This document shows positions 3,657-61,494 of a stretch of 64,000 nucleotides of DNA, one piece after another. Made by a program: the position numbers and the translations under genes. The notes beneath the pieces are model-generated. The model was not told where the DNA came from. It searched no databases and saw only the letters and a program-made list of their open reading frames with translations. Source of the stretch: Candidatus Thermodiscus eudorianus (GTDB lineage: Archaea; Thermoproteota; Thermoprotei_A; Sulfolobales; Acidilobaceae); contig WAOW01000006.1 in assembly GCA_015521085.1 (NCBI GenBank), positions 62,001 through 126,000 on the forward strand, given 5' to 3'. Position 1 is the first letter of the stretch. Each line of letters starts with the position of its first letter.

Positions 3657-5198
3657 CTAGGCCTGCAACGGGTCACGCAACAAGCCGGGTATCACCTCAA
3701 CTATGTCGAGGGCGGTCAACGACTCCCCGAGCCTCCCATAGGCCAGTTCTCCAGCACGGCCAACCAGGTAGGCCCCTGTTATAGCCGAGTTAAGGGGCGA
3801 CGGGTCCCCGAGTATGCTGTTGCGCTTCGCCATTATCCCGGCTATGACGCCGGTCAACACGTCCCCCGTGCCACCCACACTCATCGCGGCGACTCCACTC
3901 CTATTCTCCCTGCACAGCCCCTCGGCACTACACGCGGCATCCCTCGGGGCCTTCACCAACACAGTAGCCCCCAGCCTCCTGCTTATGCTCCTGGCCTGCT
4001 CCAGCGGGGCGGCGTCGACGCCCGATAAGAGCCTCGCCTCCCCGCGGTGTGGTGTGAGGACTACGGTTTCGGCCAGGCTAGTGCCGGACTCTGCCACCGC
4101 CCTCAGGCCATCGGCGTCTACGACTAGAGGGACCCTCTTCTCGACCGCCAACTCTATTATCCTGGCGGCGGCCTCAAGGGTCTCCTCCTCCCTCCCCAGG
4201 CCGGGGCCGATTGCCACCGCATGGACCCTCTCCATCATGCTAGCTATCCCCTCTAGGTCCTCTCTTGAGAGGGTCTCTCCCCGCAGCGGGTATGGTATCA
4301 CGGTGCTACACTTGGACGCTGCTGTGAAGGCTATCTCCCGTGGGGAGGCTAGGTAGACCAGGTCCACGCCGGTCCTCGCGGCGGATAGGGCTGTGAGGAG
4401 CGGCGCCCCGACATAGTACTTGCTCCCGGCCACGACCAGCACCCTCCCGCCGACGCCCTTATGGGAGTCCCTGGGCCTCCGCGGTATCCTGGCGGCTACG
4501 TCGCCTGGCCCGGCATAGTATTCGGCGTCCCTGGTCAGCCCTATGTAGGCGACCACCAGCTCTCCCGTGTAGAGCCTAGCCTTCAACAGGCCCCTCTTGA
4601 CCTTGTGCATTGTAACCGTTGCGTCAGCCCTCGCCGCCTCATCCACAGCCGCCCCCGTGTCGGGGTCCACGCCTGTGGGGGCGTCGATTGAGACCCGGAG
4701 CCCCGGGGCCTTGTTGAAGGCTTCCACCGCCTCCTTGACCGGGCTCCTGAGGGACCCTCTGACCCCGGTTCCAAGGAGCGCGTCGACCACCACGTCTGAG
4801 TCGTCGACCTCTAGCCAGCCCCGGGCCATGGGCTTCACTATCCCCACGGAGTCCATCCTCAGGAGGGCTTCTAGGTTGAGCCTTGCATCCTCGTGGATGA
4901 CCTCGGTGGGGGGATATGCCAGGTGTACCTGGACCCGGGCCCCCCTACCGGCTAGGTGTCTGGCGGCTACGAACCCGTCCCCGGCGTTGCCCCCCTTCCC
5001 TGCTATGACCGCTATCCTCTTCCCCTTCACGCCGCCTAGCCTGTACTCTATGTAGTCGGCGACGCTCCTGCCCGCGTTCTCCATCATTAGGAGTAGTGGT
5101 ATGCCTAGGGAGACGCCGTTTAGCTCGTAGGCCCTCATATCCTCTACCGAGATAGCCTCTACCTCATCCTCGCCTACCACGTAGAATCCCTGCGGCAA
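3657..5198 (-). CDS. nnr: bifunctional NAD(P)H-hydrate epimerase / ADP-dependent dehydratase
   Basis: This enzyme repairs hydrated NAD(P)H, damage that forms quickly at high temperature. The N-terminal half (about 1-220) is the NnrE epimerase domain, with GKGGNAGDGF (68-77) and IDAPTGVDPDTG (171-182). The C-terminal half (about 235-510) is the NnrD dehydratase of the ribokinase-like fold, with GPGLGR (331-336), DADGLR (361-366), TPHRGE (382-387) and the anion-hole GGTGDVLTG (442-450). Length 513 aa is usual for the fused form. It is divergent from a nicotinamidase-like gene, so two NAD-related genes flank one intergenic region that holds a GAGGGTCCCTC palindrome (5235-5245). Confidence 0.95.
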   Translation of the reverse strand: MPQGFYVVGEDEVEAISVEDMRAYELNGVSLGIPLLLMMENAGRSVADYIEYRLGGVKGKRIAVIAGKGGNAGDGFVAARHLAGRGARVQVHLAYPPTEVIHEDARLNLEALLRMDSVGIVKPMARGWLEVDDSDVVVDALLGTGVRGSLRSPVKEAVEAFNKAPGLRVSIDAPTGVDPDTGAAVDEAARADATVTMHKVKRGLLKARLYTGELVVAYIGLTRDAEYYAGPGDVAARIPRRPRDSHKGVGGRVLVVAGSKYYVGAPLLTALSAARTGVDLVYLASPREIAFTAASKCSTVIPYPLRGETLSREDLEGIASMMERVHAVAIGPGLGREEETLEAAARIIELAVEKRVPLVVDADGLRAVAESGTSLAETVVLTPHRGEARLLSGVDAAPLEQARSISRRLGATVLVKAPRDAACSAEGLCRENRSGVAAMSVGGTGDVLTGVIAGIMAKRNSILGDPSPLNSAITGAYLVGRAGELAYGRLGESLTALDIVEVIPGLLRDPLQA

Positions 5199-5329
5199 CC
5201 CTGCCCTTCACCCCTCCCGGGTGTCAAGCTGGTTGAGGGTCCCTCGTAATATTCCATTGCCATACTGCGACTAGGCAAGCGTTATACGCTCCGCGATGGA
5301 ATAATACTGGTATTGGGGGTGGCTTGGGC

Positions 5330-5941
5330 GTGGTCATGGTCGAGGTCCCCGAGTACAGTGTCGTCGACAGGGTCGAGCTCCCAGCCGATAAGACCGCCGT
5401 GATAGTCGTAGACATGCAGAACGACTTCGTCAAGCCTGAGGGCAAGCTCCACGTGCCCAGGGCCATGGAGACGGTGGAGCCTATAAGGAGGCTGTTGGAC
5501 AAGGCCCGGCGCGCCGGGGCCAGGATCTTCTACACCCAAGACACCCACTACGACGATGACCCGGAGTACGGGATCTGGGGCGAGCACGTCCGCTACGGGA
5601 CCTGGGGCTGGCAGATCATAGACGAGCTAAAGCCCCAGCCGGGGGACATAGTGCTCGTCAAGACCAGGTACGACGGCTTCTACGGCACGCCCCTCGACGA
5701 CCTACTCAGGGTGTATGGGATCGAGTACACGGTGATCGTCGGCACGGTAGCCAACATATGCGTGCTACACACGGCGGCGAGCGCGGCGCTTAGATGGTAC
5801 AAGGTGGTGGTCCCGGTGGACGGTATAAGCGCCCTGACAGACTTCGACATGCACGCCACGCTAAGACAGATAAGCTGGCTGTATAAGGGCATAATCGTGG
5901 AGTCCGTCGAAGGCATAACCTTCACCGGGAGGGGCCGATGA
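5330..5941 (+). CDS. nicotinamidase / isochorismatase-family hydrolase
   Basis: The cysteine-hydrolase triad is visible: Asp in VVDMQNDF, Lys in LVKTRYDGF and Cys in GTVANICV. A nicotinamidase-type metal site is present as D-T-H in TQDTHYD and a later His in IWGEH. Together these favour nicotinamidase (nicotinamide to nicotinate, NAD salvage) over isochorismatase, but the family is broad. Possible starts are TTG 5324, GTG 5330 and ATG 5336; GTG is chosen because the purine-rich GGGGGTGG (5315-5322) sits 7 bp before it. The divergent nnr gene supports a place in NAD metabolism. Confidence 0.85.
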   Translation: MVMVEVPEYSVVDRVELPADKTAVIVVDMQNDFVKPEGKLHVPRAMETVEPIRRLLDKARRAGARIFYTQDTHYDDDPEYGIWGEHVRYGTWGWQIIDELKPQPGDIVLVKTRYDGFYGTPLDDLLRVYGIEYTVIVGTVANICVLHTAASAALRWYKVVVPVDGISALTDFDMHATLRQISWLYKGIIVESVEGITFTGRGR

Positions 5942-58777: not shown

Positions 58778-59554
58778 ATGTATGAGGCTAGGTACGGGTT
58801 GAACGAGGAGATAGAGGCTAGGATTAGGATACTGTTGGAGTTGAATAGGTACGAGGCCAAGGCCTATCTAACGCTCGTGAAAATGGGCTCTATGAAGGCA
58901 GTCGAGCTGGCTGAGCTCTCCGGGATACCGAGGGGCCGCATATACGATGTGCTTAGGAGCCTCGAAGCGAAGGGGCTAGTGAACAGGAGAGACCACTTAT
59001 ACGAGGCGGTCAATCCCAGGAGGGCACTCTCTAGGATCGGGCAGAGGAAGCTCGTCGAGGCACTAGACGCTATGAGGAGGATTGAAGAGTTGGCGGAGGA
59101 GCTTGAGAACTCCTATAAGACCGGTGGGATGAGAGAGGAGGTGAGACTCGTATATGGCTTAAAGGAGAGCCTCGCGGCGGCGCTCTCCTCGATAACGCAA
59201 TGCAAAGGACCAGTATACTTCGTGGCCTTCAAAGCCTCAGAGAAGAGCCTCGAATACTGGGACCTCCTAGCGCCGCTAATCGACAGGCTCCCCCCTAATG
59301 TGAGGATACTCGTCCCATCAACCCAGAGGCCGCCCAAGCAAGCCCTGGAGGCGCTCCTAGAGAAGGGGATCGAGGTCAGGAGTAGCCCGGCCGCGGTGCT
59401 TGACATGATGGCCGCCTGCGACACGGTGATAATAGGGCTGCCGAGCCTCCACCACGACGTGGTCTCGGTATTCATAAGGCATCCAGCCTTCGCATCAGGA
59501 CTAGCCTCTAGGCTGGAGGAGATGTGGCATAACGCCAAGCCAGTGAAGGAATGA
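58778..59554 (+). CDS. TrmB-family transcriptional regulator
   Basis: An N-terminal winged helix (YEAKAYLTLVKMGSMKAVELAE, GIPRGRIYDVLRSLEAKGLV, then VNPRRAL) is the standard TrmB DNA-binding domain, followed by a coiled-coil helix (LDAMRRIEELAEELENSY) and an alpha/beta effector domain of the phospholipase-D-like type (about 120-255). These proteins control sugar or transport genes in archaea. The start ATG is near-leaderless behind a palindromic TATA box. Targets could be the permeases on either side. Confidence 0.9.
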   Translation: MYEARYGLNEEIEARIRILLELNRYEAKAYLTLVKMGSMKAVELAELSGIPRGRIYDVLRSLEAKGLVNRRDHLYEAVNPRRALSRIGQRKLVEALDAMRRIEELAEELENSYKTGGMREEVRLVYGLKESLAAALSSITQCKGPVYFVAFKASEKSLEYWDLLAPLIDRLPPNVRILVPSTQRPPKQALEALLEKGIEVRSSPAAVLDMMAACDTVIIGLPSLHHDVVSVFIRHPAFASGLASRLEEMWHNAKPVKE

Positions 59555-59615: not shown

Positions 59616-59825
59616 ATGAGCCTGCTGGGGCTCATCAACCGGGTGCTCGGAAACAGGTGGGTTGGCCTAGCCATATTCACCGGGGCCTTCTACCTAACCT
59701 TCACAACGCTACAAGACTTCCTCAAGAAGACGCCAGCGGCCTCCACGGGAGTGCACCTGCTCGAAGCCCTCTCGACCATCGTATACGTGGCAGGCGCGGT
59801 GCTAGTGGTAAGATACATTAAATAA
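59616..59825 (+). CDS. small two-helix membrane protein, 69 aa
   Basis: Two hydrophobic segments (WVGLAIFTGAFYLTFTTL and EALSTIVYVAGAVLVVRYI) joined by a polar loop (DFLKKTPAASTGVH). The ATG at 59616 follows TATTGGGGTCTGGGGG, an adequate ribosome binding site. It could be an accessory to the permease 74 bp downstream. No family known to me. Confidence 0.55.
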   Translation: MSLLGLINRVLGNRWVGLAIFTGAFYLTFTTLQDFLKKTPAASTGVHLLEALSTIVYVAGAVLVVRYIK

Positions 59826-59898
59826 TCGCCGCGTCCACCACGAGAGCCTAGAAGCCCACAACGATGAGAGACCTAGACCGCTGTCAGAGGAGTCTAGA

Positions 59899-61494
59899 TT
59901 GGAGAGGGGAAAGCTGGGGTACTGGGAGATCTTCAGCATCGGAGTCGGCGGTATGATTGGAGGCGGGATATTCGCCACGCTCGGCTTGAGCCTGGAGCTA
60001 GCCAGGGGGGCCGCCCCGCTTGCTTTCTTCTTCGCGGGGCTCATCGCCTTGTTGACCAGCTATAGCTACGCGAAGCTCTCAGCCCGCTACCCCAGCGTGG
60101 GTGGAACGATAGAGTTCCTTGTTAGGGCGTATGGCGATAACATTGTTACCGGCGGGTTGAACATAATGCTCCTAGCCGGCTACATAGTCATGATAGCGCT
60201 CTATGCGCACGCCTTCGGAGCCTACGGAGCCAGTATGATCCCAGGCCACTACAGCGAGGCGTACACTATACTAGTCGTGTTCGCCATAGGGAGCCTCACA
60301 CTAGTCAACTTCCTTGGAGCCGTGGTGAGTGGGAGGATAGAATTGGCCCTGGTAGCGTTTAAGCTCTTCGTACTCCTTTTCGTAGCCGCGGTCGGGCTGA
60401 GGCTCGTGGATTGGTCTATGCTCTCCCCGGCGACCTGGCCGCCGCTAGTCAACATAATAGCTGGCGGCATGATAATATTCCTCGCCTACGAGGGCTTCGA
60501 GCTAATAGCCAACACCGCCGGCGATGCCGAGAACACTACCGTCCTTAGGAAGGCCCTATACTCTGCCGTCATCACGGTGATATCGGTCTACGTGCTGATA
60601 TCACTGGTCTCAGCCGGTGCACTCTCCCCGGAGACCGTTGAGAGGGCCAGGGACTATGCACTGGCCATCCTAGTCAAGCCAGTACTCGGAGAAGCCGGGA
60701 CCACGCTTGTCGTCGCAGCAGCCCTGGCCTCGACTAGCAGCGCAATCAACGCAACACTCTACGGGACCGCCAGGATGAGCTACCTCGTGGCGAAGTATGG
60801 AGAGGCACCGCAGATACTCGCCAGGAGGATATGGCGGGGCGCCTACGAGGGCTTAGTCATCATAAGCGTCCTCAGCCTCTTACTAGCGCTGGGGACCAGC
60901 CTGGAGGCGATAAGCACGGCGGGCAGCGGAGGGTTCCTCATAATCTTCGCCGCGGTTAACCTTGCAGCCTACAGGCTCCGGAGGACCACTGGCGCGAACC
61001 CGGTACTGGCTCTGGGCGGTGCGATGCTCAGCCTCGTGGCGCTCTCCATACTCGTATGGAGGATGTACCAGTTGGACCCGAGGCAGTTAACCGTGCTCGC
61101 GGGGATACTGGCCGGCAGTATCCTGGTAGAGGCGGTCTATAGAGGGGTTACCAGGAGGAGGCTGCCCCGCGTGGTGGATCCGAGGCTTGCGGAGAGGGAG
61201 TCGATGCTGAGGAACTGGGAGGAGATAGCAGGTAGGGTTGCATCCTCGATAAAGAAGGTGGTTAGGGATGCCGAGGTGTTCATCATAGGGAGCCACGCTA
61301 GGCTGGAGCCCCAGAAGGCCGGCGACATAGACATACTGGTCGTCACCCCCAGGAAGCTGACGAGAGAGGAGGAGGACGCGGTGAAGAGCGCGGTAGAGAG
61401 GGATCTCGGCTTACCGCCACATCACCCGGTCCACCTGCACGTGGTCTCTAAGGAGGAGGCAGGTAGGTACAGGCATAGGAAGAGGATAGAGTAG
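59899..61494 (+). CDS. APC-family amino-acid permease fused to a nucleotidyltransferase domain
   Basis: Residues 1-405 are an APC-superfamily amino-acid permease with 12 membrane segments, including the substrate loop GVGGMIGGGIFATLGLSL in helix 1 and AYEGFELIANTAGDAEN in helix 6. Residues about 420-531 form a minimal polymerase-beta-type nucleotidyltransferase: FIIGSHARLEPQKAGDIDILVV with Gly464-Ser465 and Asp476-x-Asp478, followed by a strand HPVHLHVVS. The frame is uninterrupted, so this is a true fusion and the domain would be cytoplasmic. The TTG start follows CAGAGGAG (59885-59892). The reaction of the added domain is unknown; it may sense or modify a cargo or a nucleotide. Confidence 0.88.
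   Translation: MERGKLGYWEIFSIGVGGMIGGGIFATLGLSLELARGAAPLAFFFAGLIALLTSYSYAKLSARYPSVGGTIEFLVRAYGDNIVTGGLNIMLLAGYIVMIALYAHAFGAYGASMIPGHYSEAYTILVVFAIGSLTLVNFLGAVVSGRIELALVAFKLFVLLFVAAVGLRLVDWSMLSPATWPPLVNIIAGGMIIFLAYEGFELIANTAGDAENTTVLRKALYSAVITVISVYVLISLVSAGALSPETVERARDYALAILVKPVLGEAGTTLVVAAALASTSSAINATLYGTARMSYLVAKYGEAPQILARRIWRGAYEGLVIISVLSLLLALGTSLEAISTAGSGGFLIIFAAVNLAAYRLRRTTGANPVLALGGAMLSLVALSILVWRMYQLDPRQLTVLAGILAGSILVEAVYRGVTRRRLPRVVDPRLAERESMLRNWEEIAGRVASSIKKVVRDAEVFIIGSHARLEPQKAGDIDILVVTPRKLTREEEDAVKSAVERDLGLPPHHPVHLHVVSKEEAGRYRHRKRIE

Follow-up and report, generated by a model that had tools for sequence, protein, structure and literature searches.

In the window (the whole 64,000-nt stretch of DNA that was analysed), one uninterrupted reading frame encodes an amino-acid permease of the ApcT type that runs on into a minimal nucleotidyltransferase (MNT) domain. 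This architecture is conserved among archaea, has a single origin, descends on its MNT side from HEPN-MNT pairs, and has lost its nucleotidyltransferase motif in bacteria. We propose that the MNT was domesticated as an NTP-Mg2+-binding allosteric regulator of amino-acid uptake for which NMP transfer is dispensable, a proposal for which the balance of the evidence seems to us even.

The frame (59899-61494, + strand) begins with TTG and encodes 531 aa without an internal stop. Its parts, and the two genes upstream of it, are:

58778-59554: TrmB regulator, upstream of the fusion
59616-59825: 69-aa membrane protein, upstream of the fusion
59886..59892, + strand: putative ribosome-binding site AGAGGAG, 6 nt before the TTG
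59899..61164, + strand: ApcT-like APC amino-acid permease domain, residues 1-422 (PF13520; ApcT 3gi9 by sequence and fold)
60361..60363, + strand: K155, equivalent of ApcT K158 (alignment to ApcT, with Ala in that column of 3gi8, the K158A structure)
60979..60981, + strand: R361, where the TM10-TM11 loop begins, a candidate for the domain interface (distribution of Arg across relatives)
61177..61491, + strand: MNT domain, residues 427-531 (PF01909, AlphaFold2, hhalign)
61288..61293, + strand: G464-S465 of GSX10DXD (51 intact fusions: G in all, then S or G)
61324..61332, + strand: D476-I-D478, the metal-binding DxD, present in every archaeal fusion aligned
61423..61440, + strand: HPVHLH, residues 509-514, with H512 at the third metal-ligand position (alignment with fusions and free-standing MNTs)

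Pfam assigns residues 6-367 to AA_permease_2 (PF13520, E 3.7e-31); over the final 112 aa, NTP_transf_2 (PF01909, E 2.3e-7) scores above its curated cut-off. The initial annotation had described an uninterrupted in-frame APC permease-MNT fusion and called for a structural model. An AlphaFold2 (AF2) model of the full-length protein, built from 58 sequences, gave a mean pLDDT of 90.2 and a pTM of 0.90; together with the open frame, both Pfam domains and Foldseek, it bears that description out. The secondary-structure order of the MNT in the AF2 model is predicted as HHEEHEH. A chance domain match was rejected on the PF01909 score, the model and the hhalign alignment to free-standing MNTs.

For the permease part (residues 2-422), the best PDB relative was ApcT/MJ0609 (E 1.8e-59), which also ranked first in a Foldseek search with the AF2 model (3gi9, TMt 0.88). 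The two share the same fold and an equivalent lysine, K155 here and K158 in ApcT, where it carries the coupled proton; in contrast to the fusion, ApcT stops after TM12 and has no MNT domain. K155 is invariant (Lys in 98/98 aligned relatives). Amino-acid import coupled to protons is the most likely activity of the permease.

When 40 related genomes were searched at the protein level, the fusion was recovered full-length at 17 loci (L003-L019), 47-73% identical and free of internal stops. Among 300 Thermoproteota genomes, all of the close permeases (9/9) are fused, five of them in single-contig genomes, and none is split. A scan of genome contigs placed the fusion in Acidilobaceae, Pyrodictiaceae, Archaeoglobaceae and Hydrothermarchaeota, and also in MAGs labelled Aquificota, Thermodesulfobacteriota, Thermotogota, Deltaproteobacteria, Campylobacterota and WOR-3; because most contigs come from MAGs, isolated outliers (Micrarchaeota, Thaumarchaeota, WOR-3) may reflect faulty binning. 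The 17 full-length relatives, the many genomes and the single-contig cases in Thermoproteota rule out an assembly error or read-through. We looked for the two situations that the initial annotation had named as damaging, a fusion unique to this DNA or separate genes in relatives, and found the genes fused in relatives; the conservation of the glycine and the DxD that it had hoped to see in several genera extends, in archaeal fusions, to many. An additional copy, L020 (G023 contig 9, about 4042-5588), has in-frame stops and is either a decayed gene or a sequencing error. The viral contigs searched held no relative of the fusion. In the openly licensed literature that we searched, no APC-MNT fusion and no such active-site variant is described, and the passages found in comparative HEPN/MNT papers contain no permease fusion; the earlier impression that no system of this kind had been described agrees with this.

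Both genes pointed out upstream, for TrmB and for the small membrane protein, are present, and neither is a conserved neighbour of the fusion. No neighbour is widely shared beside fusions (in the closest relatives the flanks covered only 1.5 kb), so that there is no operon clue to the substrate. No HEPN toxin gene adjoins the fusion, and none recurs beside fusions in relatives. A search of its own genome returned no HEPN protein over the PF05168 cut-off, no PF01934 match and no other match to the fused MNT sequence; it did return four other PF01909 matches and one ApcT-like paralogue without the MNT domain. Two loci of that genome, L117 and L118, gave weak PF05168 matches below the cut-off.

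The archaeal fused MNT domains align with free-standing MNTs of relatives (hhalign 99.8%, E 2e-30), and the neighbour of such a free-standing MNT is a HEPN protein (PF05168) in seven of the seven cases tested (E 3.8e-19 to 1e-28). As the nearest free-standing relatives are thus MNTs that belong to HEPN-MNT (type VII) pairs, the fused domain is a domesticated antitoxin, a descent that the initial annotation had not recognised. In a tree of MNT domains, one branch separates 45 fused from 27 free-standing members (support 100/97). In a tree of the permease parts, rooted by two distant permeases (L002 and L021), the fusions form a clade (support 99/94) inside which the forms with a degenerate MNT are nested; domain-less permeases lie outside it, except for one mostly Campylobacterota group nested within. 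Together the two trees indicate a single fusion event, and the fusion spread through many hot-vent archaea and bacteria. Homology and the trees support a HEPN-MNT pair as the donor of the MNT, probably in a hyperthermophilic archaeon. Elsewhere, a 213-aa frame (L134:382-1023, - strand) encodes a HEPN-like sequence followed by an MNT.

The motif spacing is exactly GSX10DXD (GS 464-465, DxD 476-478), and the spacing of 10 recurs in 50/51 intact fusions. In MntA, GSX10DXD is the catalytic motif, and D71 is the third Mg ligand, which binds the second Mg2+ (PMC7641770). The GS and DxD motifs had been called intact, which is only partly right for the active site: both stand at 464-478, but the acidic third metal ligand expected in 'HPx[D/E]xH' is absent and His512 takes the place of the carboxylate, a departure from the full canonical site. 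Position 512 is His in 31/51 intact fusions and Asp in the other 20/51, with Archaeoglobus and Geoglobus among the Asp-type members and an Aeropyrum-like form among the His-type ones; each of the two states must have changed several times on the permease tree. Free-standing MNTs (n = 27, read by eye) have Glu there in 18 cases, Asp in six and another residue in three. The limitation to D or H within the fusions could mean that His keeps an altered catalytic function. The intact group of 51, all of whose members are archaeal as judged from the record title or from relatedness to the window, was defined by the DxD and G464, and conservation of these residues inside it is therefore by construction. 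Independently of this definition, no aligned archaeal fusion falls outside the group, and all 21 outsiders come from records labelled bacterial. G464, D476 and D478 are kept in all aligned archaeal fusions at a mean MNT identity of 38% (37 dereplicated members). Because the DxD serves catalysis and binding alike, its conservation does not tell the two apart.

In the bacterial fusions (n = 21), GS is lost and the DxD is absent as a pair from 21/21. These degenerate domains still align to the intact MNT (hhalign 99.8%), and one of them was modelled by AF2 with a pLDDT of 85.7. Its best PDB matches in Foldseek were mostly MNTs and related nucleotidyltransferases, with probabilities of 0.95-1.00 and E values of only 0.004-0.05, and also included a BolA-like protein; judging from this model, bacterial fusions are predicted to keep the MNT fold. 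In the domain-less Campylobacterota group the protein stops just past the linker and retains a remnant, for example YLDKDLEEKE; this loss of the MNT within the clade shows that transport works without it, a point against the regulator proposed here. For close pairs (pairs with dS above about 1, near saturation, were left out), dN/dS was well below 1 in both permease and MNT, the MNT evolving faster (0.042 and 0.049 for L003/L004; 0.061 and 0.102 for L033/L034; 0.034 and 0.203 for the degenerate pair L067/L068). These low values, which include the degenerate pair, argue that selection keeps the MNT domain even without its motif. Among free-standing relatives, one MNT (L113:1228-1563, + strand) has also lost GS and DxD.

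We compared permease columns in search of a modification target; apart from a few weak columns, R361 alone changes together with an intact MNT. R361 is Arg in 49/51 intact-MNT fusions, 1/21 degenerate-MNT fusions and 2/26 domain-less permeases; no obvious new Tyr, Ser or Thr is confined to intact-MNT fusions, which leaves R361 as the clearest coupled change. The TM10-TM11 loop that carries it would be cytoplasmic if the termini lie inside, as in ApcT. R361 is a candidate contact with the MNT rather than proof of one, and kinship accounts for part of its pattern.

In the mechanism that we infer, a proton-coupled permease, whose substrate would be an amino acid, carries the MNT on its cytoplasmic C-terminus, after TM12. 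The domain most likely binds NTP-Mg2+; binding would alter the transport rate allosterically, and control would run from the nucleotide or energy state of the cell to uptake. Amino-acid uptake is thereby probably regulated by cellular nucleotides through the fused domain, which would have passed from an allosteric NTP-binding regulator in archaea to a bacterial tail that has no motif and serves regulation or structure. The His third ligand in this lineage and the fold kept without the motif in bacteria together indicate that NMP transfer is unnecessary for the persistence of the fusion, with nucleotidyl transfer a possibility in the Asp-type lineages.

Two readings are live, and the second is nucleotidylation coupled to transport, as the initial annotation had suggested. 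An active MNT enzyme might nucleotidylate a bound partner or the permease itself, on a cytoplasmic Tyr, Ser or Thr, and so switch transport on or off. The exact match to the catalytic motif of MntA (PMC7641770), the G and DxD kept in archaeal fusions and the Asp third ligand of 20/51 would fit such an enzyme, as would the domestication of HEPN-MNT modules into protein-modifying regulators proposed in passages of PMC3710099. The His at position 512, in this protein and in most of the intact group, and the bacterial members that have lost the motif entirely are the reasons why we do not favour it, and the permease columns offer R361 where a Tyr, Ser or Thr arising only with an intact MNT would be expected; we regard the active enzyme as possible though doubtful. 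A more specific form, in which substrate or the level of NTP prompts the built-in nucleotidyltransferase to AMPylate the permease or a partner and thereby switch transport, we consider unlikely; if true, this AMPylation switch would be a mode of transport control for which we found no earlier description in the openly licensed literature.

A tail that is purely structural or targeting, with a fold that stabilises or dimerises the permease and for which nucleotide is irrelevant, would account for the fold and linker retained in bacterial members without any motif; it sits badly with the G and DxD retained in fast-evolving archaeal domains, and we judge it improbable. Adenylylation of the incoming substrate, which would couple uptake to activation in the manner of group translocation, is suggested by the physical fusion of a transporter to a domain of NMP-transferase type. 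The minimal domain, which has no separate substrate-binding domain, and the loss of the motif from bacterial fusions though their permease is conserved make this reading very improbable. Hardly credible, finally, is an MNT with its antitoxin role retained, in which it would bind or modify a HEPN toxin at the membrane: the closest free-standing relatives are indeed HEPN-paired, but the fusion's own genome has no PF05168 match over the cut-off and no PF01934 match, and no HEPN gene recurs beside the fusions.

The preferred reading, allosteric regulation by bound NTP-Mg2+, can be set beside known systems. The MNT of HEPN-MNT (type VII) pairs, MntA among them, has the same fold and GSX10DXD and is the closest profile match, whereas here the domain is fused to a permease, lacks a HEPN partner and has D or H as third ligand vs mostly E or D. 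Parts of HEPN-MNT systems have been domesticated into regulators, according to passages of PMC3710099; there GlnD and GlnE, which regulate nitrogen metabolism and combine NTase with HEPN-like domains, provide a precedent, although they are soluble multidomain enzymes with no transporter. APC permeases with C-terminal USP domains likewise join an amino-acid permease to a cytoplasmic domain at the C-terminus whose family binds nucleotides, and are a functional parallel to the fusion. One example, from Archaeoglobus (L124:320-2548, - strand), has two C-terminal USP stretches; it differs from the fusion in that its added domain is unrelated (PF00582) and its permease belongs to another branch (30% identity).

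Thus, a component of a toxin-antitoxin system was recruited once into a transporter, and its later fate can be traced through evolution, from archaea with the motif intact to hot-vent bacteria with the motif lost and the fold kept, and to one clade without the domain. These natural variants (Asp form, His form, motif-less and domain-less) allow one to ask whether NTP binding or transfer controls uptake. For annotation, a nucleotidyltransferase domain assigned to such a permease marks a genuine family rather than a faulty assembly. The window also contains a second gene with a nucleotidyltransferase domain (1288-2001, + strand; PF01909, E 7.6e-10), whose 237-aa product is of unrelated architecture.
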